In this document: in pieces, positions 41,461 to 57,356 of the stretch
Position numbering within the stretch: the first letter of the stretch is position 1
How the letters are laid out: each line of letters starts with the position of its first letter
Origin: Gammaproteobacteria bacterium
GTDB lineage: Bacteria; Pseudomonadota; Gammaproteobacteria; Tenderiales; Tenderiaceae
Direction: 5' to 3'
Assembly (NCBI GenBank): GCA_016200485.1
Contig: JACQEP010000024.1
Coordinates: forward strand, 62,001 to 126,000
Length of the DNA: 64,000 nucleotides
Notes under the pieces: generated by a model
Told to the model about the DNA's origin: nothing
Database searches by the model: none
The model's input: only the letters and a program-made list of their open reading frames with translations
Position numbers and translations under genes: made by a program

Positions 41461-42459
41461 CTACTTATGGCCAGGACATTCCATAACTATGCAGCTTTTT
41501 TGCATTTCGGAGTTCATGGACGAATCCTCGATTTCTTCCAAGCTTTGTTGATACTCGGGATAATCCGGCGCTATAGCAACGGCACACTGCACCGCCTGAA
41601 TCGCAGCGGCAGAACACTGCGTAGCTTTGAGGGCATACGCCAGATTATTCCAGGCGGCGGCCTGCCTGTTATTGAGCGTGATCGCCTGACGAAAGGCGGC
41701 GATGGCGCTTTGATATTCACCTCGCGCGTAAGACGCGTTACCTAAACTCATCCAACCGAGCTCATGTTGTGGCCAGCGCTGCGTGGCGGCTTGATAGGCT
41801 TGATATGCCGCTTGTGCGTGGCCTGTTGTTTCGAGATCGTTCGCGGCCTGGAGATAGGTTAACGGCTGGGCGGTTGCCGGAATCCGCCCTGGCGGGACGA
41901 CAACAATGGCCCAGTGATGACTCCGCTGCCAGGTGCGTTCGAAGACTGAGAGCGGTGTGACCCAGCGCTGATAGGTACCCGAACGCAGAATGATCTCGCC
42001 GCGCGCCAGGTCATAACCGACCACTACGGCATAATGCCAGCGCGGCAACCAATCCAGCCCTACGTTTTGCAGCACCAGCACCGGATTGCCACCAGCGACT
42101 TCTGACAGCAAATCGGTCAACTCCGGCGCAAGTGGATAAACCAGCCGCTCATAACTGCGCGCGGCCGCCATCATTTCGACTTGCAGACTACCCTGTTTTG
42201 CCGGGACATAAACTGCTGCTACAAGCTGATCAGGAGTGACTTCAATTCGCTGTGCTGCCAGCACGGTGGCGAGCGCGGCCGGGCCACATTGATATTTTTC
42301 CTGCGGGAAGAATGGCGTTTCGGTCAGTTCAATGTGCGGCGGCAGCGACGGTGGAATTTCCTGTAGCTGCCGGGTTTGCGGCGGCGTGGCACAAGCTGCC
42401 AACATCGCACAAAAAAGAACGCCCGCAAACATGCGGGCGTATTGATAATACCAGGGCAA
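41461..42459 (-). CDS. PA2778-family C39-like cysteine peptidase with TPR repeats (lipoprotein)
   Basis: A 332-residue protein with a lipobox (GVLFCAMLAAC), a papain-like C39 domain in which the Cys is in QEKYQCGPAALATVLA and the His in WLPRWHYAVVVGYD, and C-terminal TPRs (GWMSLGNASYARGEYQSAIAAF, AWNNLAYALKA). It is always found with the small partner encoded next to it. The substrate is unknown; C39 domains usually cut after double glycine. The start may be TTG 42459, touching the upstream stop, or ATG 42435. Confidence 0.82.
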   Translation of the reverse strand: MPWYYQYARMFAGVLFCAMLAACATPPQTRQLQEIPPSLPPHIELTETPFFPQEKYQCGPAALATVLAAQRIEVTPDQLVAAVYVPAKQGSLQVEMMAAARSYERLVYPLAPELTDLLSEVAGGNPVLVLQNVGLDWLPRWHYAVVVGYDLARGEIILRSGTYQRWVTPLSVFERTWQRSHHWAIVVVPPGRIPATAQPLTYLQAANDLETTGHAQAAYQAYQAATQRWPQHELGWMSLGNASYARGEYQSAIAAFRQAITLNNRQAAAWNNLAYALKATQCSAAAIQAVQCAVAIAPDYPEYQQSLEEIEDSSMNSEMQKSCIVMECPGHK

Positions 42460-42855
42460 CTACCTCACCGGATGCACAAAGGGGAAGATATCGGTAGCGC
42501 CGATGATGTCGGTGAAGACAAAAACGAGAAACAGCAGCACTACAAGTCCCAGAATATCGCCACCGGCCGGGAGCTGCTCCAGACGTTGATTGAGTTCCGC
42601 GACCTGGGCATCGGTCAGATCGGCAACGCGTGCCTGTGCGGCAGCAGGATCGACACCCATTTTTATCAACCGTTGCTGTACATCACCACGATTTAGCCAC
42701 TGCGCCAATTGCGCGCGACTAAGCTGCTTGAGCTCGCTCTGCACCAGCTCCGGCGTGCTGACCATAGCAGCCTGTGCGGGCATGACGTTCAACCCGGTGA
42801 ATGACATACAAAGAAATAACGAAACCATTCGTTTACGTGTGGCGCTGTTCAACAT
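42460..42855 (-). CDS. PA2779-family small membrane protein
   Basis: About 131 residues: a signal peptide (VSLFLCMSFTGLNVMPAQA), a helical middle (LVQSELKQLSRAQLAQWLNRGDVQQRL then LTDAQVAELNQRLEQLPAGG) and a C-terminal transmembrane helix (ILGLVVLLFLVFVFTDIIG). This layout is that of PA2779, the obligate neighbour of the PA2778 peptidase. Since its helix is preceded by Gly-Gly (PAGGD), it may be the peptidase's substrate or partner; this is inference. ATG 42855 has GGAG six bases upstream. Confidence 0.78.
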   Translation of the reverse strand: MLNSATRKRMVSLFLCMSFTGLNVMPAQAAMVSTPELVQSELKQLSRAQLAQWLNRGDVQQRLIKMGVDPAAAQARVADLTDAQVAELNQRLEQLPAGGDILGLVVLLFLVFVFTDIIGATDIFPFVHPVR

Positions 42856-42905
42856 AAGCATCTCCGTTAATAAACATTAATACACATCTCATGATACGGC
42901 CGGAA

Positions 42906-43205
42906 TTACTCCAACGGCAACACCGCTTCCAAACCACTCACTCGCACCAAAGATAATAACTGGGCAGGCATCGCACGCAAACGCAGAGATCTCCCACGGT
43001 GCTGCGCTGCACGCATCCAACTCATCAATAAGGCCAAGCCGGCGCTGTCGCTGCGCTCGATGCCGCTCAAATCACAAATGACGGTGTCACCACTATTGAA
43101 CAGCACGTCTTCCTGATCACCCAGTATAGGGACGCTCTTGAAACTGAGTTCGCCCTCAAGGCGAAACTCACCTTCCGCCAGCCGCAGTAATTTCAGATCA
43201 CTCAC
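42906..43205 (-). CDS. mlaB: MlaB, STAS-domain subunit of the Mla phospholipid transporter
   Basis: A 99-residue STAS protein. The conserved Ser/Thr region is CDLSGIERSDSAGLALLMSW, with the DSAG motif seen in MlaB and anti-sigma antagonists. MlaB binds the MlaF ATPase on the cytoplasmic face of the MlaFEDB complex and is needed for its activity. Its ATG overlaps the mlaC stop. Confidence 0.88.
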   Translation of the reverse strand: MSDLKLLRLAEGEFRLEGELSFKSVPILGDQEDVLFNSGDTVICDLSGIERSDSAGLALLMSWMRAAQHRGRSLRLRAMPAQLLSLVRVSGLEAVLPLE

Positions 43206-43803
43206 GTCGAGCCTGTTTATTGCGGTCGACCAGGGTTTTGATCAGGCCATCGATATCGCCTTGACGCACTTCCTTGGCAAAAGTGGTGCGATAGTTGCTC
43301 ACCAGGCTGACGTTATCGATGATGACATCGAACACGATCCACTCGTTATCACGCTGATGCAGCCGGTAATCAATCGGGATCGGCAAACCACCGGGCTGCT
43401 CGACCTCGGTACGCACCGTGACTTCGGTATCCCCCTGATTCTGACGGAAGGGCAAATAGGTGAGCTTCTGGTCAGTATATTCATTCAACGATGTGGCATA
43501 GGTGCGCACCAGCAAGGTCCGGAACTCGCTGACAAAGGCCTTACGTTGCGCATCGGTCGCGCGTTTCCAGTTTTTGGCCAGCACCAGTTGCGACATGTAT
43601 TCAAAATCAAAATGCGGCAATACGATTTGCTGCACCAGATCATAAATCCGCTCAGGATTCTTTTTGATGACGTCGCGCTCCTCCTTGAGTTTGGCCAGCA
43701 TCTGCTTCGAGGTTTCCTGCACCAACTGATCCGGCGCTTGATTGGCCCAAACAGCCGAGGTAAAACCACAACTGAGCAATAACACCAACAGCAAATTTTT
43801 CAT
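43198..43803 (-). CDS. mlaC: MlaC, periplasmic phospholipid-binding protein
   Basis: A 201-residue exported protein (MKNLLLVLLLSCGFTSAVWA signal) of the Ttg2D/MlaC family. FDFEYMSQLVLAKNWKRAT and FVSEFRTLLVRTYATSLNEY are family segments. It ferries phospholipids between the outer-membrane MlaA and the inner-membrane MlaFEDB. Its ATG overlaps the stop of the TolC-like gene by four bases, and it overlaps mlaB by eight. Confidence 0.92.
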   Translation of the reverse strand: MKNLLLVLLLSCGFTSAVWANQAPDQLVQETSKQMLAKLKEERDVIKKNPERIYDLVQQIVLPHFDFEYMSQLVLAKNWKRATDAQRKAFVSEFRTLLVRTYATSLNEYTDQKLTYLPFRQNQGDTEVTVRTEVEQPGGLPIPIDYRLHQRDNEWIVFDVIIDNVSLVSNYRTTFAKEVRQGDIDGLIKTLVDRNKQARRE

Positions 43804-45152
43804 GGCAACGCTCCGCTGACGCTCTCCAACTGTGCGACATGCATATTGTATTCGAAAATCGTTTGCAAATAGTCGGTGGATGCCATCACATATCCCTGAA
43901 AGGCCATCATGATTTTCTCGGCCTTTTCCATTCCGGCCTCAAAATCGGTATAGGCGGCAATCATCCAGCGCCGCGACGAACGGCTGGCCTCTTCCAGATT
44001 TTGCACCGCCTGATAATAACCTTGAGTCTGATAATACTGTTCTGCCACCTGGAACGGGATACCTTGTCGCGCAAGACTGGACTTGGCAATCAGGGCGTTC
44101 AACTCAGCTTCGGCGGCCTGGGTCTTGGCGTCCTGCACGCCTTTGGTCCACGACCATTGCAAGCCGATCATCGGGCTCAAACCTATATCATTGAACGGAT
44201 CACTGATATAGGGATTGTCGAGGTGATCACGACCCGGCGTATAAGAAAGAAATCCGGAGACACCGGCGTAGAGATTGGGATTGGCCTCGGACTTGCTCGC
44301 CGCCACCAAGGATCGCCGCGCCCGCAGACCGGATGCAAGCTGTTTCATTTCCGGACGCTGCTCCAGCGCCAATTGCTGCAACTCGGGCAGCGCTGTGGCT
44401 GGCAATGCCACCGGCGACAAACGTTCATCGCTCACTTCCAGCGGCTGATCAAGACCAACGCCCGTCACGACTTTGAGCCCGCTCAGCGCCACCTGCTCCA
44501 AGGCTTCCGCCTGGGCGCGATACTTGGCCACCAGGGCGCGCCCCGACTGCAAGGCATACAGATCCATCTGCTTGACGTCGCCTTCGCCTTCATCCAACCA
44601 TTTTTCAACCAGTGCGATGACCTTATCGAGACGGCGCGCGACATCCTCCAATAAAAGACGACTGTCGCGGGCGGCAAGATAGCCGTAATAAGCACGCTTC
44701 ACATCCATGGCAGTGCTCGTCCGCTGCAAGCGCACATCCTGATCCTTGACCAGAATATTGGCCTGCGCTGCGTCTTCATAGTTTTCAATTTTGCCGAAGG
44801 TATTGAGCGGCTTGACCAGCGTCATTTTCAGATGAACCCAGGGCGAGATGTTATTAATATCATAACGATCATTACGCAATTGACACTGACCGGGATTACA
44901 AACACCGTCCTTGAAAATATTGCCTTCAACTTTTGGCGCCAAGGCTAAAAAGGTATTGGCATCGAGAATCCAGCCCTCATGCCCTTTGACCTCGGCCAAG
45001 GTGGCGCGCGCGACTTCAACAAATTGCCGCCGCTCTTCAATGCGCGGATCGGAATGCAGGGCACGATCAATCGCCTGCTCAAGATTTAGCGTCTCGGCCC
45101 GCACCGCAAACACGGGCAGCGCCAGCAACACGGTAAAGAACATCTGCCTCAC
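43800..45152 (-). CDS. TolC-family outer-membrane efflux protein inside the mla operon
   Basis: A 450-residue protein with a signal peptide (MRQMFFTVLLALPVFAVRA) and TolC-like repeats of coiled-coil helices (LNLEQAIDRALHSDPRIEERRQFVEVARATLAEVKG; AKTQAAEAELNALIAKSSLA). Beta-strand segments with aromatic residues lie between them. TolC proteins form trimeric outer-membrane channels. It is unusual that it lies between mlaD and mlaC with 4-base overlaps on both sides, so it is made together with them. It may provide an outer-membrane exit in place of, or alongside, MlaA. Confidence 0.88.
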   Translation of the reverse strand: MRQMFFTVLLALPVFAVRAETLNLEQAIDRALHSDPRIEERRQFVEVARATLAEVKGHEGWILDANTFLALAPKVEGNIFKDGVCNPGQCQLRNDRYDINNISPWVHLKMTLVKPLNTFGKIENYEDAAQANILVKDQDVRLQRTSTAMDVKRAYYGYLAARDSRLLLEDVARRLDKVIALVEKWLDEGEGDVKQMDLYALQSGRALVAKYRAQAEALEQVALSGLKVVTGVGLDQPLEVSDERLSPVALPATALPELQQLALEQRPEMKQLASGLRARRSLVAASKSEANPNLYAGVSGFLSYTPGRDHLDNPYISDPFNDIGLSPMIGLQWSWTKGVQDAKTQAAEAELNALIAKSSLARQGIPFQVAEQYYQTQGYYQAVQNLEEASRSSRRWMIAAYTDFEAGMEKAEKIMMAFQGYVMASTDYLQTIFEYNMHVAQLESVSGALP

Positions 45153-45637
45153 TCGGCGCTACCTTTGTCTTTGCTGCCACCCTCGGCCGTTTTAAACAGG
45201 AACTGACCGATCAATTGCTCCAGCACCAGCGCCGACTGAGTGATCTTGATCGAATCGTTGGCGCCCATGTATTTATCATCACCGCCCGGTTCCAGGGCGA
45301 TGTATTGTTCGCCCAACAGACCCGAAGTAAAAATGCTGGCCGAGGTATCTTTCGGCACATGGTTATATTGGCTGTTGATATTGAGTGTCACCACTGCTTC
45401 ATAGGTTCCGTTATCAAAGCCGATTTTTTCCACGCGCCCGATGCGCACGCCAGCCATGGTCACTGGCGCGCGCTCCTTAAGCCCACCGATATTATCGAAG
45501 CGCGCAATCAAAGGATAACCTGCCTGGTCATTGAAGGCGGCGAGATTGCTTACCTTCATCGCCAACACGAACAGAGCACCTAACCCTGCCGCCACAAAGA
45601 CCCCTACCGCTACTTCGATCGTCTTGCCTTGGAACAT
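45149..45637 (-). CDS. mlaD: MlaD, MCE-domain subunit
   Basis: A 162-residue protein with one N-terminal transmembrane helix (IEVAVGVFVAAGLGALFVLAM) and one MCE domain (YPLIARFDNIGGLKERAPVTMAGVRIGRVEKI; TSGLLGEQYIALEPGGDD). MlaD forms a hexameric ring that holds lipid at the inner membrane. ATG 45637 is chosen because GAGGAG lies seven bases upstream; the TTG at 45652 would read through that site. Confidence 0.94.
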   Translation of the reverse strand: MFQGKTIEVAVGVFVAAGLGALFVLAMKVSNLAAFNDQAGYPLIARFDNIGGLKERAPVTMAGVRIGRVEKIGFDNGTYEAVVTLNINSQYNHVPKDTSASIFTSGLLGEQYIALEPGGDDKYMGANDSIKITQSALVLEQLIGQFLFKTAEGGSKDKGSAE

Positions 45638-45648
45638 AAAGTCGCTCC

Positions 45649-46425
45649 TCAATCGAACATAAATGCCGTCAACATAAAATTTAAGCCCAGCACCGCCAAC
45701 GAGGTGTGCACTACAGTGCGCGTTGTCGCGCGGCTCACACCCTCCGATGTCGGCACCGCATCATAACCTTCAAACATCGCAATCCAGGCGGCGGCAAAGC
45801 CAAAGGCGATACTCTTGATCACGCCATTAACAACATCGTCATAAAAATCCACGCGTGCCTGTATCTGCGACCAAAACGCACCGTCATCGACACCCAACAA
45901 ACCGACGCCGACAAAATATCCGCCCATTACCCCCACCGCGCTGAAAATCGCCGCCAACAAAGGCAGGGACAATATCCCTGCGATAAAGCGTGGCACGATC
46001 ACCCGTTTCAGCGGATCGACCGCCATCATCTCCATGCCGGAGAGTTGTTCGGTGGCCTTCATCAATCCTATTTCGGCCGTGAGCGCCGATCCTGCACGCC
46101 CCGCAAACAACAATGCCGTCACCACCGGACCCAGCTCGCGCACCAGCGACAAGGCCACCATTACCCCCAGCGACTCCTCGGCGCCGAAATCGACCAAGGT
46201 ATTGTAACCCTGCAAGCCCAGCACCATACCGACAAAAATACCGGAAACGACAATAATCAGTAATGAGAGCACGCCGACCGAATACATCTGCTGGATCAGC
46301 AGACGTGGCCGCGGCAACAGGCTGGGCACGCCGGCCAGCACCTGCCACAAGAACAAATGGCCGCGCCCCAATCGCTCAAAAAAACTCAAGCCCGATCGCC
46401 CCAAATGGCGTAGGGCGCGAATCAC
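45649..46425 (-). CDS. mlaE: MlaE, permease of the Mla transporter
   Basis: A 258-residue membrane protein of the MlaE/Ttg2B family. Hallmarks are [69 protein letters not shown] and the C-terminal [14 protein letters not shown]. It is the core of the phospholipid ABC transporter. Its start overlaps the mlaF stop by four bases. Confidence 0.95.
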
Positions 46426-47255
46426 GCCTGCCCCCCTGCCAACAGATCGACGGCGTACTCAGGCGCGGGGTAATGAAAGGGCACGGGACCATCCGGTAGT
46501 CCCTGCAGAAACTGCTGCACCCAGGCTGAATCCGTGCGGCTTAATTCCTGCGGCGTACCCGCACCCACCACCTTGCCGTCTGACAATACATAGATGTAAT
46601 CGGCGATCGCCGCCGTTTCCTGCACATCATGGGAAACGATAATGCTCGTCAGGCCCAGCGCATCATTAAGCTTACGGATCAATTGTACCAGCACACCCAT
46701 TGAAATCGGGTCCTGACCGGTAAACGGCTCATCATACATGATCATCATCGGGTCTAGCGCAATCGCCCGCGCCAGCGCCACGCGCCGCGCCATGCCACCT
46801 GAAAGTTCGCTGGGCATCAGCGCGCGTGCGCCGCGCAGACCAACCGCTTCCAGTTTCATCAATACCAGATCACGAATCATCGCCTCGGACAATTTGGTGT
46901 GCTCGCGCAAGGGAAAAGCGACATTGTCAAAGACATTGATATCGGTCAGCAAGGCGCCACTTTGAAATAACATCCCCATCCGCTTGCGCAATTCGAACAG
47001 CTCGGTGCGCGATAAACGGTGGACATTATGGCCATCGACTTCAACACTACCCTTCGATGGCCGCAATTGACCGCCGATCAGCTTCAGCATTGTCGTCTTA
47101 CCGGTGCCGCTCGGCCCCATGATCGCCGTGATCTTGCCGCGACAGATATCAAGATCAACGCCGGAAAAAATCGCGCGCCCGCCGCGACTGAAGTGCATGT
47201 CGCGAACGCGGACCAGGACATCATTATTGCTGCCCGCCACCCTCAACCAATCCAT
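46422..47255 (-). CDS. mlaF: MlaF, ATPase of the Mla transporter
   Basis: A 277-residue ABC ATPase: Walker [10 protein letters not shown], signature [14 protein letters not shown], Walker [15 protein letters not shown] and the switch [14 protein letters not shown]. The C-terminal extension is the part that contacts MlaB in characterised complexes. It is the first gene of the mla operon in this window. Confidence 0.95.
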
Positions 47256-47273: not shown

Positions 47274-47551
47274 CTATCCGGCACCATGCTGTAAATCCTG
47301 GATTATTTTCCGGAGCGCCTCAATGGCCTGCGGGTAACGATTAAAAAACTGCCCCCCGGTCTTGCGATCAATCTGCTTAAACTCTTCGCCCACCACAATC
47401 AGAATCATACAAATAGCATCTTTCCGATCGACACCATCCTCGGTAGCATCAAAATCCTCAGGGCATGATTAGTTGCAAACCGCCGGGGAATACGCTCCAG
47501 AGCTTCGACGCAGCTTTCCAACCGCTCGATCAACAATCTCTGATCATACAT
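47274..47551 (-). pseudogene. HepT-like (HEPN) toxin gene, frameshifted and truncated
   Basis: From ATG 47551 the frame reads MYDQRLLIERLESCVEALER then IPRRFATNHA and shifts. The other frame continues EDFDATEDGVDRKDAICMIL, IVVGEEFKQIDRKTGGQFFN and RYPQAIEALRKIIQDL before TAG at 47274. Together they match the HepT/DUF86 family, with a one-base deletion near 47460. The RX4HXY catalytic motif of HEPN toxins is absent, because the sequence diverges after RYPQ. The start overlaps the upstream MNT gene. It is probably inactive. Confidence 0.65.
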
Positions 47552-47849
47552 AAACCGCTTCCTTCTCTATCCGCACGCGCAACTTTGGATTCGTCAGTCC
47601 GCGCAACTGCAAAACATCCACAGGATGTTCCAGCAATGCTTCCAGATCCTGTTTCAAGAGAACCGTTTTAAACAGATTAGGCTCATCAGTTTCGAAAACA
47701 ACGTCCACATCGCTTTCAGGCGTTGCCTCATTGCGGGCATACGACCCAAAGTAACCCAAAGCACGCAAGCGGTACTCCGCGCCATGTTGCTCTTTGAACG
47801 CCTTCAGCAGGACACGGAGTTGCTCAGGCTTCAAAACCGTACGCTCCAT
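47544..47849 (-). CDS. MNT-domain nucleotidyltransferase antitoxin (MntA-like), copy 1
   Basis: About 101 residues from ATG 47849 (MERTVLKPEQLRVLLKAF). The minimal nucleotidyltransferase motif is GYFGSYARNEATPESDVDVV, i.e. GS-x10-DxD. MntA proteins neutralise HepT by AMP-adding its active-site tyrosine. Its partner here is the broken hepT just downstream. A long in-frame extension upstream is not conserved. Confidence 0.85.
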   Translation of the reverse strand: MERTVLKPEQLRVLLKAFKEQHGAEYRLRALGYFGSYARNEATPESDVDVVFETDEPNLFKTVLLKQDLEALLEHPVDVLQLRGLTNPKLRVRIEKEAVYV

Positions 47850-47895
47850 TAACGCAAAGCCTCTATCATCTTTTTTATGGTCACAGACAATGACC

Positions 47896-48219
47896 CTACC
47901 TCGTGAGTACATATCCAAAACACCTGTCGGCATCAACATCAAAGTAATGATGGGCAATGATGTCCCTGAATCCCATCGCACCTTTCCAGTCAGTCCCGGG
48001 ATATTGCGAAAGCAACGTACCACCGGTGATTTTATCCAGATTTTTCAACGCTTCGCCGATAGCCATAAAAAGCATGCACAAACCATCCAGTTTTTCCATG
48101 CCCGATGGCGTGCCGGTAAAATCCTCTACTTTTTGAATCTGCACGGAACGGCTTTTGATCTTTTCCAGCGCCTCATCAATTTGCTCGAGAATAGCCAGCG
48201 CGAGGGCACGATCAAACAT
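47896..48219 (-). CDS. HepT-like HEPN ribonuclease toxin, copy 2
   Basis: A 107-residue helical protein. The C-terminal half has MGFRDIIAHHYFDVD, the RX4HXY motif (R-DIIA-H-H-Y) of HEPN toxins, and the segment GMEKLDGLCMLFMAIGEALK typical of DUF86. It should cut or inactivate RNA unless AMP-modified by its MNT partner, whose gene overlaps its start by eight bases. Confidence 0.88.
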   Translation of the reverse strand: MFDRALALAILEQIDEALEKIKSRSVQIQKVEDFTGTPSGMEKLDGLCMLFMAIGEALKNLDKITGGTLLSQYPGTDWKGAMGFRDIIAHHYFDVDADRCFGYVLTR

Positions 48220-48502
48220 AGATGCCTTCCTTTTCGATACGCGCCTTTAAGAAGGGATTCATCTTTTCGCGAACCCGGACAATATCCACATGCGCGTGAA
48301 CCCGCGCCTCAATGTCTTCTTTGACATGCACCAGCACAAAGGGATCTGGCGTTTTCGTCTTGACGCAGACGTCAACATCGCTCTTCTCCCCCGCCTCATC
48401 GCGGGCAACCGAGCCAAATATTCCAATCTCAAGAATGCCGTATTTTTCCCCATAATCCCGCTTGAACTCGCGCAAGATGGCAAGAACGCTATCTCTTTTC
48501 AT
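48212..48502 (-). CDS. MNT-domain nucleotidyltransferase antitoxin (MntA-like), copy 2
   Basis: About 96 residues from ATG 48502 (MKRDSVLAILREFKRDYG). The motif is GIFGSVARDEAGEKSDVDVC (GS-x10-DxD). It precedes hepT copy 2 with an 8-base overlap, the standard antitoxin-first order. The upstream in-frame extension (MVSERGWRFLW...) is rejected as unconserved. Confidence 0.87.
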   Translation of the reverse strand: MKRDSVLAILREFKRDYGEKYGILEIGIFGSVARDEAGEKSDVDVCVKTKTPDPFVLVHVKEDIEARVHAHVDIVRVREKMNPFLKARIEKEGIYV

Positions 48503-48545
48503 GACCAACCTCCGATACAATCGCCACAAAAATCGCCATCCCCTC

Positions 48546-49898
48546 TCACTCACCACCGACCATCATCCGCTCGATGAGAATCGAACCCGTATGCACATTA
48601 CCACGATGATCGACATCCTTACCCACAGCAACAATACCTTTGAACATATCACGCAAATTGCCGGCAACGGTAATCTCTTCCACGGGATATTGAATCTCGC
48701 CATTCTCGACCCAGAATCCGGCGGCACCGCGTGAATAATCGCCGGTGACGATGTTGGCGCCATGGCCCATCATTTCAGTAATGACCAGACCAGAGCCCAT
48801 TTCACGACACAGCGCCGCGAAATCAAGCGCCCCAGTGTCAACAAACACATTGCGTGTGCCGCCGGCATTGCCTGTGCTTTGCAGGCCAAGACGACGTGCG
48901 GCGTAGCTATCGAGCGTATAGGTTTGCACCCTGCCTTGCGTGACCAGATCACGATCCACCGTTGCCACGCCTTCACGATCAAAGGCCGCGCTGTTATTCG
49001 CGCGCGGCAGGCGCGGCCGTTCGTAAACATGAATGAATTCAGGAAACACTTGCTGACCAAGGCTATCGAGTAAAAATGTCGTCTTGCGGTATTGAGCACC
49101 GCCTCGTACCGCCGCGAGATAACTGCTGATCAAACTACCGGCGATTTCAGCGGCAAAGATCACAGGCACTTCTTGTGTCTTCAAACGACGTGCCCCCAGC
49201 CGTTGCAGGGTACGCTGTGCGGCCATGCGCCCCACATCCGATGGCGCTTCCAGTTCCTGTGCCAGGCGTGACGAGCTATACCAATAATCACGCTGCATAT
49301 TTTCGCCTTCGCGGCCAATCACGGCGCAACTCAGGCTATGATGCGTACCGCCATAGGCACCGATAAATCCGTGGCTGTTGCCATAGACACGATAGGCCTG
49401 ATGGCTGCTGACGCTAGCGCCCTCGGAATTGTCGATGCGTGAATCGTATTCGCGGGCTGCATTTTCACAGATCAACCCCACATCAATCGCCTGCTCCGGC
49501 GTCAGATCCCAGGGATGAGACAGATCAAGATCCGGGATATCCTTGGCCATCAGCTCGGCCGCGGCCAAGCCCGAGTAACTATCCTCGGCGGTATATTTGG
49601 CAATCCGGCACGCGGCGGCCACCGTATCATTCAACGCGTCGGAGGCAAAATCCGAGCTGCTGGCCGAACCCTTGCGCTGGCCAAAATAAACCGTCACGCC
49701 CAGACCTTTGTCATGGGTATGCTCGATGGTCTCGACCTCGCCCAACCGCACATTCACTGCCAAACCAGCTTCGATACTGACAGCCGCCTCGGCGGCGGTG
49801 GCCCCCTGGGCCTTGGCGGCGGCCAAAATCTCCGCCACTACCGATTCCAGCTTGTCGCGGGTAAACACCGAATTTTTAATCACTGGCGCCTGCGCCAT
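48546..49898 (-). CDS. pmbA: Metalloprotease subunit PmbA/TldE
   Basis: A 450-residue TldE. With TldD it forms a heterodimeric zinc protease that processes peptides such as microcin B17 and unfolded proteins. Visible family segments are SSSDFASDALNDTV, LDSYAARRLGLQSTGNAGGTRN and GHGANIVTGDYSRGAAGFWVENGEI. It lacks the HExxxH site, as expected, because that belongs to TldD. It is divergent from darP. Confidence 0.94.
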   Translation of the reverse strand: MAQAPVIKNSVFTRDKLESVVAEILAAAKAQGATAAEAAVSIEAGLAVNVRLGEVETIEHTHDKGLGVTVYFGQRKGSASSSDFASDALNDTVAAACRIAKYTAEDSYSGLAAAELMAKDIPDLDLSHPWDLTPEQAIDVGLICENAAREYDSRIDNSEGASVSSHQAYRVYGNSHGFIGAYGGTHHSLSCAVIGREGENMQRDYWYSSSRLAQELEAPSDVGRMAAQRTLQRLGARRLKTQEVPVIFAAEIAGSLISSYLAAVRGGAQYRKTTFLLDSLGQQVFPEFIHVYERPRLPRANNSAAFDREGVATVDRDLVTQGRVQTYTLDSYAARRLGLQSTGNAGGTRNVFVDTGALDFAALCREMGSGLVITEMMGHGANIVTGDYSRGAAGFWVENGEIQYPVEEITVAGNLRDMFKGIVAVGKDVDHRGNVHTGSILIERMMVGGE

Positions 49899-50649: not shown

Positions 50650-52086
50650 TTAATTGGTACCACCCACCGTCAAACCGTCCACCTTCAGCGTCGGTTGGCC
50701 GACGCCCACCGGTACACTCTGCCCATCTTTGCCGCAGGTGCCGACACCTTCATCCAATTTGAGATCGTTACCGACCATCGTCACTCGCGTCAACACATCC
50801 GGGCCATTGCCAATCAGTGTCGCACCCTTGACCGGATAACTTACCTTACCGTTTTCGATCAAATACGCCTCACTGGCGGAGAATACAAATTTGCCGGAAG
50901 TAATATCCACCTGACCGCCGCCGAAATTCACGGCATACAAACCATAATCAACGGACGCAATAATTTCTTCCGGTGTGTGCTTGCCCGGCAACATATAGGT
51001 ATTGGTCATGCGTGGCAGCGGCAGATGCGCATAAGATTCGCGACGACCGTTACCGGTCACCGACACACCCATCAGGCGCGCATTGAGTTTGTCCTGCATG
51101 TAACCTTTGAGTACACCGCTCTCGATCAGCATCGTACATTGCGACGGCGTGCCCTCATCGTCGAGATTGAGCGAACCGCGCCGCTGCGGCAAGGTGCCGT
51201 CATCGACCACGGTGCATAATGGCGAAGCGACTTTTTCGCCGATGCGTCCGGAAAATGCCGAGGTTCCCTTGCGATTGAAATCGCCTTCCAGACCGTGACC
51301 GATCGCTTCATGCAGCAACACGCCGGGCCAGCCAGGGCCCAGCACTACCTTCATTGTTCCGGCAGGCGCGGGCCGCGCACCAAGATTCACCAACGCCTGA
51401 CGCACGGCTTCACGCGCATAAGAAAGCGCGCGATCCTGTTCGGTGAAAAAGCGATAATCAAGCCGCGCACCACCCCCGGACGAACCTTGTTCGCGACGGC
51501 CTTTTTCTTCAACAACGACAGACACACTCAATCGCACCAGTGGCCGCACATCCGCCGCCAGCGTGCCATCGCTGCCCACCACCAGTATCACTTGATGCGA
51601 ACCGGCAAGACTGACCATCACTTGCGTGACACGGGGATCCTGGCGTCGCGCCTCGGCATCCACCGCTTCCAGCAAGGCGACTTTGTCGGCCTCAGGAATG
51701 CTGTCGAAAGGGGCGTCGGCGCCATACAACGCGCGCGGCTGACTCGCCGTCCACGCCTGTACCCGCCCTTGCTGCCCGGCACGCGCAATCGCACGCGCAC
51801 TAATCGCTGCCTCTTCCAACGCTGGCAGATATATCTCATCGGAGTAGGCAAAACCGGTTTTTTCACCGCTGATGGCGCGCACACCGACACCACGTTCGAT
51901 GCTGTAACCGCCTTCTTTGACGATGCTATCCTCGAGCGACCAGGATTCATAGCGATTGCTTTCGAAAAAGAGATCGGCATTGTCAATGGCGTGTCCCATT
52001 ACACCGCTCAATACTTTTTCCAATTGGGATTCGCTGATCCCCGCCGGGGCTAAAATCAGATCACGTGCAAATGCTAAATTTGTCAT
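50650..52086 (-). CDS. tldD: Metalloprotease TldD
   Basis: About 478 residues. The zinc site is [20 protein letters not shown] (HE-x3-H) with the third ligand Cys in [17 protein letters not shown]. It pairs with PmbA/TldE. ATG 52086 ([14 protein letters not shown]) is preferred over GTG 52104. It follows the nitrilase-family gene on the same strand. Confidence 0.95.
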
Positions 52087-52105
52087 ATAAATATCAGGGC
52101 CCACA

Positions 52106-53426: not shown

Positions 53427-56400
53427 TTAATTTGGCATCCCCTCCAGCAGTGGTGGTGCCGGTTCTTGCGGTAATACATCCCCTTGGCGCTTGATCACAG
53501 GCGCATCCCAGCTACCGGTAATCGAATAATGAATTTCACTCGCCTCGGCAATCCTGGATTTGAACAGTTTTTCAGCCAGCAGGACCGCAGCCCCCACCCC
53601 CAAACCACCCGCGACCACCCCCACCAACGGCAAGCCCGTGCTCACGTGCGGCATGACCACCACCTGCTGATCATAATCACGCGCATCCAATCCCACCCGC
53701 CCCTGCATCGTGACCTTTGCTGCAGGACCATCCAGCACAAAATCCTGAATTACCGCATTACCATCCTCGATTTCAAACCCACCACGCATGTAATCGAAAC
53801 TAAACCCCTTACTAAAGAAGTCACGAAAATCCAGCGTCAATCGGCGCGGCAAAGCCTGAATACTCAACAACCCAAAGAGCCGGCCAGCGCCAGGTTCCAC
53901 TTCCAGCAACGATCCATCGTTGACATCAAAGCGCATGGTGCCTTCCATGCGCTTCACGTCCGGCTCAAAAATCGGCCCCGGCCAGCGTAAGCTGATCTGC
54001 CCCCTACCTTCACCTTTACGCACAGCCGAGTTGTACCCTAGACCGCCGAGGACACTACCCAAATCTCTAATCTCCAGATCGACATCCAGCGCCGAGGTGT
54101 GCGTCTTGCCCACACGATTCCAGGAGCCACCTGCCTTCAGACTCGCGTGCTCGCTATTCAACTCCAGGGTATTGATCAGTAAACCATTGGCGCGCGGCTC
54201 GGTCATCAGTGTCAACTTGCCTAAATCACTCTCACCATAAAAAAGGTGCTCACTGTTGATGCGCAAAGGCGGCAACTTGCGCGGATCTGCCTTTTCAGCG
54301 AGCCGACCTGGACCCGGCTTACCGGAGATTTTGGACTTTTGATCCCCATACTCAGAGTCTCTCGGCAATTGTAAACGGCTGAGATTCATCTCCAGGGTTT
54401 GGCCTGTTTTTTGCGGTATGCTGATCTTGCCTGCCAATTGTTTGCTATCGACATTGGCAATCCATACCCCCTGTATCTTCTCCATTTCGGCAGTGACATC
54501 GTTAAACTGCATATCCCCAAGTTTTGCGACTCCCGCCTTTAATGCAACCTGGTTCAATTCCACTGACGATTCCGTATCTGCGACCTTTTTCGGCGCTGCC
54601 TCCATAAACGCATTGACCACAGGCATCCAATCCTTATCACTGATTGAATTAAACTCGCCCGCTATCCGTATTCCAGGATTCTTCGGTAACTGCGCGCGCT
54701 CACCGACACGCACATCGCCTCTCCGTAACTGAAGCTCACCTGACTTTGTAGGCTCCAAACTAAACAGTGCCGACAGTAACATTTCGCCGTAATCGACCTG
54801 CCAGGTTGAGTTATTCGCCATGAAGCGTCCACGCACCGTCAGCGGTGTACGCATCGCATTGGACTTTGCCAATGGCGCAGGCAAACGCACCGCGGTACCT
54901 GTCAAATTGGAACTCACCTTTAATGTTGATTCGGGTTGATCGCCACTAATAGCCAACTTCAACTCGGCCTGCCATGGACTGCCACCTTCCATAAATCCAA
55001 AAATTGGAATAAAGGAAAAACGCTGCGCCAATTCTGCATAACGGCTATCGCCTTGGGCACGAAACACGAGATAGCGAGATTTTTTGTTCGACTGCGTGCT
55101 AATCGCCATCCGCGTCGGCTGGCCAAGGACAACACCCTCCAGGCGCTTTGACTCGATTCCTGACTCGCTAAAATGCAACGCACCATTCACCTGAGCCGAG
55201 TCGACCGAGTAATTCGGCATGGTCAATGCGGCGTCCTTTAACGTCACATCGCCGGACACCAGCACCTTGCCATCGCCCTCCAACGGCACTTTCAGTCCGA
55301 GCAACAACTGCGCCGAACCCGCCGTCGTCGCCTGATCAAAGGCGCCCCCTAAAATCATTTCTCGCAACGGACTTTCGCGCAGATAACGCATCACAGTAGG
55401 CACCGAACTTTCCGCCTGCCCGTTAAGTTCTAATGCAGACTTGCCTTTGAAGTCCGCGATTTTGACGTCGACATCATGCACGTTGGCATCAAATATCCTG
55501 GCCTGCTTTCCATGCACCTTCATGCCAGTGCCGGTGAATGTTAAATCGGCAGCGATCTCTTCAATACGCGGCCAACCTTCACCATGATCCAGAGCGGTAT
55601 CCTTGGCCGCAAATTGCACTTCAAACAGGCCCGAACCGTCGGCAAATGGAAACTGCCGCAATGGCCCTTTCATACGCAACGTGCCCGCCGGAATCAAACC
55701 TTTCACCAGCGCACGATCCAACCAGCTCACCAGCGATGGCGACATAATCCCTACCGGTAGATAACGTCCTGCCTGCGCTACATTTCCGTCCTGGAACGCC
55801 GCCGCCACATCCACCGTTGGCGAGGCATCTCCAGCGGGCACAAATACATGACCATTGAGCATGGCTTCAATATCGTCATTGCTCGCAGCTACCTGACGCA
55901 GATCGACATGCCAACCATCCTCCTGTTTGGCCCAGGCGATACGCCCTTGCGCAGACTTGATCGGCAAATCTCCACGAAACAGATCAACGGTTTTTACGGC
56001 CACATCGGTTGCTTTTAGATCAACCACGCCAGAATCTTGACTTGCATTAATCTCGGCATCCACACCCTTTAGGCCTGGAATTTTGCGCCAAGGCGAGGTA
56101 CTGACATTATCCAGCGCTGCCCGCAGATATAGCGCGGGTTTGTTTTCTGTCTTTTGCCAACGCAGCATCACATCCCGTAATACCCCACTCGGAGCCAAGG
56201 CCGTCAATGTCTCTTTTGCTTCGGGATTCAACCCTGGCGCCATTTGAACCCATGACACCAGATCATTGATCTGAAACTGATTGACAGCGACCTCCGTCGC
56301 AGAAACATTTTCTGCCGTCTGCTCCACTGCCAAATGTGCCCGCACATCCGGCCAGATACGACCCGCATGTGTTACACGCAGGCGGTCAACCTCCAAGTCC

Positions 56401-57356
56401 CATCCGCTGTCCTTGTGCTTCCACACAAATTCAGCATTGACCTGCGGGATCCGATCGACATGCTCGGCCTCATTTTCAACAGCAACGGCAAAATCCAAAT
56501 CGTGAACCCCGACCCGGCCTCGCAGCTCGCTCATCGCCGCCGAGCGCCACAGCCCCCACATTTCGACATCCGCCAACCCGTGGCGAATTGAAAATCTTTG
56601 ATCCCCAAGCTCACGCGAAATATAATCCAGCGCCAAATCGTTGGACTTAAAATAGTAATTCACCAGCCAATCGCGAGGTGCCTCGCCTTGACGCTCAAAC
56701 TCAACCGCCAGATCAAGACCACGCCCCAATTGGCTGGGCAAATTCAAACGCCCCGTCAGGCGGCTTTTCTGTCCATCATTACGCAACAACAGATTTACAT
56801 CAGAAAATGTCCATGACTGGTTATCACGCTGACGATCGACAAAATGCAAAGTACTGCGCTCCGCCGCCAACGTTCCCTGACGCCACACCCAACGCAGGAT
56901 TTCTTCGACATCCAATGGCTTCTTGTCATCCTTTAACTTGACGCCCACCACTTCAAACTCGCCGTCTTCCTTACGAATCACCGTGATCTCGGCACCCACC
57001 ACTGTGAGCTTGCCAAAATCGGGCTGCCAGGATCGCAGACTGGACCACAAATTGAGATCAATGCGCGCCTCGGAAAATCCCAGCATAGGTTGCGAGGTCG
57101 CGTGATCAAGGATATGAACTGTTTTCAAATCTAGACGTGGACCAAACCCATGCCAACTAAGATCGAAATCTGCGATAGTGACCTTTTCATGTAACCGTTC
57201 GCTCAGTACCGCCTCGATTTGGGGACGATAGCCTTCCAATTGCGGCAGCACGACACGGGCCACCGTCAACATCAACGCGAGCAAAAGCATTGCCGCTATC
57301 GACCAAAATCGACTATGACGGATTAACTCCCGTTTTATCGCTGTCCAAACTTCCAT
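53427..57356 (-). CDS. yhdP: YhdP family AsmA-like envelope protein
   Basis: A 1309-residue protein: one N-terminal transmembrane helix (FWSIAAMLLLALMLTVARVVL), a very long periplasmic beta-rich region and a C-terminal AsmA_2-like domain (GRGQISLRWPGPIFEPDVKR; LLSIQALPRRLTLDFRDFFS). YhdP, TamB and YdbH are thought to be bridge-like grooves that move phospholipids to the outer membrane. The length is typical. It lies beside rng as in Pseudomonas and E. coli. Confidence 0.93.
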   Translation of the reverse strand: MEVWTAIKRELIRHSRFWSIAAMLLLALMLTVARVVLPQLEGYRPQIEAVLSERLHEKVTIADFDLSWHGFGPRLDLKTVHILDHATSQPMLGFSEARIDLNLWSSLRSWQPDFGKLTVVGAEITVIRKEDGEFEVVGVKLKDDKKPLDVEEILRWVWRQGTLAAERSTLHFVDRQRDNQSWTFSDVNLLLRNDGQKSRLTGRLNLPSQLGRGLDLAVEFERQGEAPRDWLVNYYFKSNDLALDYISRELGDQRFSIRHGLADVEMWGLWRSAAMSELRGRVGVHDLDFAVAVENEAEHVDRIPQVNAEFVWKHKDSGWDLEVDRLRVTHAGRIWPDVRAHLAVEQTAENVSATEVAVNQFQINDLVSWVQMAPGLNPEAKETLTALAPSGVLRDVMLRWQKTENKPALYLRAALDNVSTSPWRKIPGLKGVDAEINASQDSGVVDLKATDVAVKTVDLFRGDLPIKSAQGRIAWAKQEDGWHVDLRQVAASNDDIEAMLNGHVFVPAGDASPTVDVAAAFQDGNVAQAGRYLPVGIMSPSLVSWLDRALVKGLIPAGTLRMKGPLRQFPFADGSGLFEVQFAAKDTALDHGEGWPRIEEIAADLTFTGTGMKVHGKQARIFDANVHDVDVKIADFKGKSALELNGQAESSVPTVMRYLRESPLREMILGGAFDQATTAGSAQLLLGLKVPLEGDGKVLVSGDVTLKDAALTMPNYSVDSAQVNGALHFSESGIESKRLEGVVLGQPTRMAISTQSNKKSRYLVFRAQGDSRYAELAQRFSFIPIFGFMEGGSPWQAELKLAISGDQPESTLKVSSNLTGTAVRLPAPLAKSNAMRTPLTVRGRFMANNSTWQVDYGEMLLSALFSLEPTKSGELQLRRGDVRVGERAQLPKNPGIRIAGEFNSISDKDWMPVVNAFMEAAPKKVADTESSVELNQVALKAGVAKLGDMQFNDVTAEMEKIQGVWIANVDSKQLAGKISIPQKTGQTLEMNLSRLQLPRDSEYGDQKSKISGKPGPGRLAEKADPRKLPPLRINSEHLFYGESDLGKLTLMTEPRANGLLINTLELNSEHASLKAGGSWNRVGKTHTSALDVDLEIRDLGSVLGGLGYNSAVRKGEGRGQISLRWPGPIFEPDVKRMEGTMRFDVNDGSLLEVEPGAGRLFGLLSIQALPRRLTLDFRDFFSKGFSFDYMRGGFEIEDGNAVIQDFVLDGPAAKVTMQGRVGLDARDYDQQVVVMPHVSTGLPLVGVVAGGLGVGAAVLLAEKLFKSRIAEASEIHYSITGSWDAPVIKRQGDVLPQEPAPPLLEGMPN

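Follow-up and report, generated by a model that had tools for sequence, protein, structure and literature searches.

In Proteobacteria, MlaA is taken to be the gate of the Mla system at the outer membrane. The question raised by the present locus is what a TolC-family channel gene does inside a mla operon, and whether it stands there in relation to MlaA. The stretch of DNA analysed (64,000 nucleotides, hereafter the window) contains a complete mlaF-mlaE-mlaD-tolC-mlaC-mlaB operon according to open reading frames and profile matches, with the following parts:

46422-47255, minus strand: mlaF, ABC ATPase of 277 aa (NCBIfam PRK11831 MlaF at 2.4e-123 and 410.7 bits, below the cut-off of 441; operon position)
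45649-46425, minus strand: mlaE, permease of 258 aa (NCBIfam perm_MlaE_1, 419.8 bits, cut-off 315)
45149-45652, minus strand: mlaD, short single-MCE protein of at most 167 aa (TIGR04430 OM_asym_MlaD, 189.2 bits, cut-off 135)
43800-45152, minus strand: mla-linked TolC-family outer-membrane protein of 450 aa (PF02321, OEP, 1.1e-25; AlphaFold2 pLDDT 86; VIA Z 27-28)
43198-43803, minus strand: mlaC, periplasmic lipid carrier of 201 aa (PF05494, 1.3e-60; kin to solved MlaC structures)
42906-43205, minus strand: mlaB, STAS protein of 99 aa (PF13466, 6.8e-19; NCBIfam mlaB_1 below cut-off)

The NCBIfam scores of MlaF, MlaC and MlaB lie under their cut-offs, and these identities are backed by Pfam and operon position. 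A gene with the MlaD domain PF02470 precedes tolC and the PF05494 gene follows it, which upholds the initial annotation in placing a full-length TolC-family reading frame between mlaD and mlaC. The source genome (3.06 Mb, 25 contigs) is rated 100% complete, and the short MlaD is the only MCE protein found in it. Just upstream of mlaF, a HepT-like gene lies between two nucleotidyltransferase genes (47544-48556, minus strand), which together look like a toxin-antitoxin cluster of the HEPN-MNT type. Two TldD/PmbA-type genes (50650-52104 and 48546-49898) and a gene for YhdP, of the AsmA-like family (53427-57356, minus strand), also lie no more than about 10 kb from mlaF; YhdP is linked to phospholipid transport. 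Directly downstream of mlaB, genes for a PA2779-family protein (DUF6627) and a PA2778-family C39 peptidase are found (41461-42861, minus strand).

The tolC/mlaC junction is ATGA, a firm overlap of 4 bases, while the mlaD/tolC junction reads GTGAGGCAGATG, where a GTG start yields a 4-base overlap (GTGA) and the ATG nine bases downstream a 5-base gap. Of the 4-base overlaps that had been described on both sides of tolC, the one with mlaC therefore stands, and the one with mlaD holds only with the GTG start. The further claim of stoichiometric production with MlaD and MlaC does not follow: TolC is trimeric and MlaD hexameric, and gene overlap alone fixes no ratios. For MlaD, the ATG that follows GAGGAG, 15 bases into the called reading frame, is a likelier start than the called TTG, so that an overlap of mlaE and mlaD is not required.

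The recurrence of the arrangement was determined in several genome samples, which overlap (as seen from identical MlaA coordinates in G006/G057 and in G003/G084) and whose counts are not additive. Among 56 genomes of relatives, counting the window's own, 15 carry the mla-linked TolC (E up to 1e-20); mlaD precedes tolC in all 15, and mlaC follows it in 14, while the remaining locus breaks off within tolC. A GTDB genome scan yielded 218 relatives, the best 80 of which were kept as loci. In these best 80 of 218, mlaC adjoins tolC in 79 (counted at L047 from a tblastn match alone), the exception, L048, ending at a contig end, and mlaD lies upstream in 74, so the insertion of tolC into mla operons that was to be surveyed turns out to be recurrent. 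Spacing was measured with start codons set mechanically as the farthest upstream. It equals -4 in 58 of the 78 loci where tolC-mlaC could be measured and in 42 of 74 for mlaD-tolC; 70 of 78 and 68 of 74, respectively, are spaced by 20 bases or fewer (best 80 of 218 relatives). Among the closest TolC relatives in named records are those of a Candidatus Tenderia MAG and of further Gammaproteobacteria MAGs, and MAGs of Thiobacillus, Sulfuricella and Sulfurimicrobium are among the named carriers (same best 80 of 218).

In a class sample of 377 genomes, each at least 95% complete, 45 carry the mla-linked TolC family, spread over 17 family groups; all 45 match at 1e-142 or better, and with a limit of 1e-40 the sole other match was a second copy, at 1e-58. 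In a phylum sample there are 5 carriers among 397 genomes, three of them in another class with the order mlaFED-tolC-C. Since the arrangement is common to 17 family groups and another class, chance insertion of tolC is rejected. As a separate observation, one genome (G451) carries, besides a normal mla-tolC operon, a second and divergent tolC (L196, 6219-8240) beside a weakly matching mlaC-like gene and large open reading frames.

The encoded protein has the TolC fold. PF02321 is matched in two stretches, corresponding to two copies of OEP, and the AlphaFold2 model matches solved TolC, OprN and CusC along almost its entire length (VIA Z about 25-28; Foldseek), the best VIA Z values of 27-28 being obtained against TolC and OprN structures. 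The N-terminus resembles a signal peptide and has no lipobox cysteine. In E. coli TolC the second tip motif is G-T/S-x4-D-V/L-L. At the second helix-turn tip the mla-linked family has RRWM...DFEAG...AEKI instead of the canonical G-T-x4-D-V-L; the RRW...DFEAG-type motif is present in 77 of 79 family members from the best 80 of 218 relatives, and the canonical pattern G-T/S-x4-D-V/L-L, taken from the canonical TolC of the same genome, in none of these 79. The source genome encodes three other full-length TolC-family members, one of which has the canonical tip. By fold and sequence the mla-linked protein is a real TolC, yet neither the cell's general TolC nor, at its tip, an adaptor-docked TolC of the canonical kind. 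Judged by mean entropy, the tips are no more conserved than the rest of the protein (alignment of 79 of the 80 loci plus the window, one locus below 400 aa being left out), so that the tip argument is one of motif only.

Other positions concern the opposite end of the channel. In a loop that we take to be extracellular by homology with TolC topology (residues 87-92 of the window protein), 48 of 80 rows have two cysteines or more and no row has just one (best 80 of 218), a pairing that suggests a disulfide. Near-invariant residues in the loops of the extracellular mouth include G77, D95, R308 and D318. Lipidation of the family was considered as well and is not clear, a cysteine near the mature start occurring in just 16 of 80 rows (best 80 of 218 relatives).

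The absence of mlaA, noted for the window in the initial annotation, extends to the whole source genome: there are no PF04333 matches in this complete assembly, and the same search was positive in the E. coli and Caulobacter controls. Within the class sample MlaA is present in 311 of 377 genomes, that is in 5 of 45 with mla-linked TolC versus 306 of 332 without it (Fisher p 8e-31, from a test that is uncorrected for relatedness and hence overstates significance); the supposition that mla-tolC genomes lack MlaA thus holds for most of them. The same picture is obtained for the genomes of the best 80 of 218 loci, with MlaA in 8 of 79 (5/49 plus 3/30), and for the 56 relatives, with MlaA in 3 of 15 genomes with TolC, one as a sub-threshold fragment, versus 35 of 41 without. 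Four single-contig genomes (G044, G312, G378 and G434) have the mla-linked TolC and no MlaA, so absence is not due to missing assembly there; an MlaA overlooked through fragmentation is ruled out for these genomes and for the complete source genome. A normal mlaA elsewhere combined with an erratic occurrence of tolC in related mla operons is not what was encountered.

The exceptions are heterogeneous. In G163, of the class sample, MlaA sits in an additional mla operon that has E, D and C genes of its own, and the other coexistence cases examined have an orphan MlaA. The MlaA proteins of genomes with both genes form three clusters; a common MlaA neighbourhood was sought in these genomes and rejected, the context being alike in pairs of close relatives only. 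Conversely, 26 of 377 class-sample genomes have neither TolC nor MlaA, and 8 of those keep canonical mlaFED loci, which means that absence of MlaA alone demands no substitute. For a tree of mlaFE, 107 of 125 labelled loci had mlaF and mlaE complete and adjacent, and 102 rows were left upon removal of near-duplicates. This tree calls for at least 11 changes in TolC and 20 in MlaA; the tree-based sign test is underpowered, with 2 independent contrasts on well-supported branches only and a median p of 0.5. In 6 of 31 MlaA-only loci examined mlaC was not found, and mlaB directly follows mlaD (L161, L170, L174, L212, L224 and L229).

Which Mla component is the tightest partner of the mla-linked TolC can be read from the loci where the operon is broken up: it is MlaC rather than MlaD. 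Six genomes (G097, G130, G132, G133, G134, taken as G308, and G376) have the tolC-mlaC pair alone, with mlaFED and mlaB gone, and no MCE protein was found anywhere in them; the loci L103 and L197 represent the same tolC. On well-supported branches of the TolC tree the MCE-free pair has at least two independent origins. As far as the contig extends, murA-, hisG- and hisD-like genes follow these pairs. On the opposite flank the larger MCE-free lineage has a FabA-like gene, to which the longer loci add kdsD-, lptC- and lptA-like genes, and L066 has a histidine kinase. A family-mate of these carriers, G221, keeps the whole operon at the same place, which makes a loss of mlaFED and mlaB in the others the simplest account. 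A further genome of the same group, G433 (L152), was found to have MlaA and to lack mla-linked TolC, MlaE and MCE protein altogether.

The link to mlaC is also kept in one lineage, that of G117 and G255, where two inserted genes (2.2 kb) part mlaD from tolC and the tolC-mlaC overlap is retained. Mirror-tree partial correlations over 71 complete operons (94 TolC rows entered the same analysis) are 0.41 for TolC-MlaC, 0.27 for TolC-MlaD and 0.17 for TolC-MlaE. TolC-type and MlaA-type MlaC proteins differ very little. A TolC-specific MlaC surface was looked for, and no clear new docking surface emerged; since only two positions are group-specific (Q131 and I139), such a surface is not claimed.

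Compared with the E. coli system (MlaFEDB-MlaC-MlaA/OmpC), the window has mlaF, E, D, C and B in the same order, a short MlaD and a retained MlaC, and differs in that MlaA, alone of the six components, was not found genome-wide and that a TolC-family channel gene lies between mlaD and mlaC. According to excerpts from PMC10719372, E. coli MlaC is recruited by the acidic C-terminal tail helix of MlaA and docks beneath MlaA, and excerpts from PMC10245069 describe overlapping binding sites for MlaA and MlaD on MlaC. The nearest precedent in the sections consulted is Veillonella parvula, with mlaEFD-tolC-tamB, no MlaC and an elongated MlaD that has its own barrel (Grasekamp 2023, PMC10665443). It shares a tolC homologue adjoining mla genes and the absence of MlaA; unlike in the window, tolC there follows the mla set, whereas here MlaD (at most 167 aa) is short, without the coil and barrel, and MlaC is present, its gene coupled to tolC. 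Brucella Mpc, a Mla-Pqi chimera with a PqiC-like lipoprotein, a needle-like MCE protein and no MlaC according to the part of PMC12436622 drawn upon, likewise combines a Mla-like ABC core with an outer-membrane component other than MlaA, but the only MCE protein of the window genome is the short MlaD and not a needle. With the TolC/OprM/CusC outer-membrane factors the mla-linked protein has in common its fold (Z about 25-28) and PF02321; it departs from their canonical members by an operon that has no adaptor and serves lipid transport, and by the replaced tip motif. In the portion used of a 2017 survey of the surroundings of MCE genes, the text mentions MlaA, DUF330, Tol and STAS genes and does not mention TolC (PMC5561183), and the corresponding portions of PMC7790496 and PMC11784454 have nothing on a mla-linked TolC in Proteobacteria. 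Beyond Veillonella, the mlaD-tolC-mlaC arrangement was not found in topical searches of the open-licence literature of PubMed Central, and it may still have been published.

At the gene level, a conserved Mla variant with a TolC-family protein and mostly no MlaA is firmly established. Given gene content, operon position, TolC fold, near-exclusion with MlaA, linkage to mlaC and altered tip, we consider it rather probable that MlaA has been replaced by a non-orthologous protein, a dedicated member of the TolC family that serves in its place as the outer-membrane dock of MlaC; for the mechanism of this replacement the inference is well supported. MlaFEDB would reside in the inner membrane, MlaC would ferry phospholipid across the periplasm, and at the outer membrane MlaC would dock on the TolC trimer, probably at its periplasmic tip, for lipid exchange. 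TolC-type MlaC is otherwise ordinary and should therefore still shuttle phospholipid to and from MlaFEDB. The direction is assumed to be retrograde by analogy with E. coli Mla. Docking of MlaC and passage of phospholipid are the inferred parts, and the weakest step is the latter, because it is hard to see where lipid would get into a TolC barrel that is closed at its sides; entry through the extracellular mouth, with its near-invariant loop residues, is only a suggestion.

The MCE-free pairs lead to a wider reading, which we put forward tentatively: tolC-mlaC may form a self-sufficient outer-membrane module for lipid exchange, an adaptor-free and pump-free TolC with a soluble lipid carrier as partner, that would normally feed MlaFEDB in MlaA's place and in at least two MCE-less lineages would use another inner-membrane partner or diffusion alone.

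The flow could also run outwards, MlaFEDB loading MlaC and MlaC passing a lipid or hydrophobic compound to TolC for release, whereby recycling would have become efflux. To our knowledge TolC channels described so far export, and Ttg2/Mla homologues were named for toluene tolerance. Anterograde movement into MlaC in vitro without ATP is likewise reported in excerpts from PMC11289387. Against this, the conservation of MlaC is the ordinary MlaC pattern, near-exclusion with MlaA points to a function that the two proteins share, and the MCE-free pairs have no known energised loader, so that we regard export as unlikely.

A continuous conduit of TolC and the MlaD ring across the envelope, with MlaC as adaptor or by-passed, would account for the mlaD-tolC-mlaC adjacency and close spacing, and the pairing of a six-fold MlaD with a three-fold TolC is reminiscent of tripartite pumps. 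The MlaD reading frame is short (median 157 aa in 73 loci), without a long helical needle, and MlaC is retained, for which reason a direct MlaD-TolC conduit is less supported; moreover, the tolC-mlaC pair outlives the loss of MlaD, and the solved E. coli MlaC:MlaD complexes, as given in parts of PMC11289387, stop at 1:6 and 2:6, short of a full ring. The initial annotation had favoured a trans-envelope route tied to Mla through MlaD, periplasm and TolC: the conserved position and the prevailing absence of MlaA agree with its general part, and its specific path, which we hold to be improbable, is at odds with the short MlaD, with mlaC beside tolC in 79 of 80 loci (best 80 of 218) and with the MCE-free pairs.

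That an ordinary efflux TolC is merely co-transcribed with mla by chance and serves other pumps draws on the promiscuity of TolC proteins and on the indirect nature of the evidence for a TolC-Mla interaction, and is very doubtful in view of a position kept over 17 family groups and another class, an operon without adaptor or pump gene, other TolC-family genes in the same genome including one with the canonical tip, the lack of the canonical tip pattern in 79 of 79 members (from the best 80 of 218), and the anticorrelation with MlaA.

Replacement of MlaA by a dedicated TolC-family protein remains the reading we prefer. A channel family known from efflux seems to have assumed MlaA's role in about one eighth of the sampled genomes of the class (45/377). 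If true, TolC would gain a role in lipid transport without adaptor or pump, and these organisms would show, as an experiment of nature, which step of Mla depends on MlaA, in which direction transport runs and how a lipid gate in the outer membrane may be constructed without a lipoprotein.
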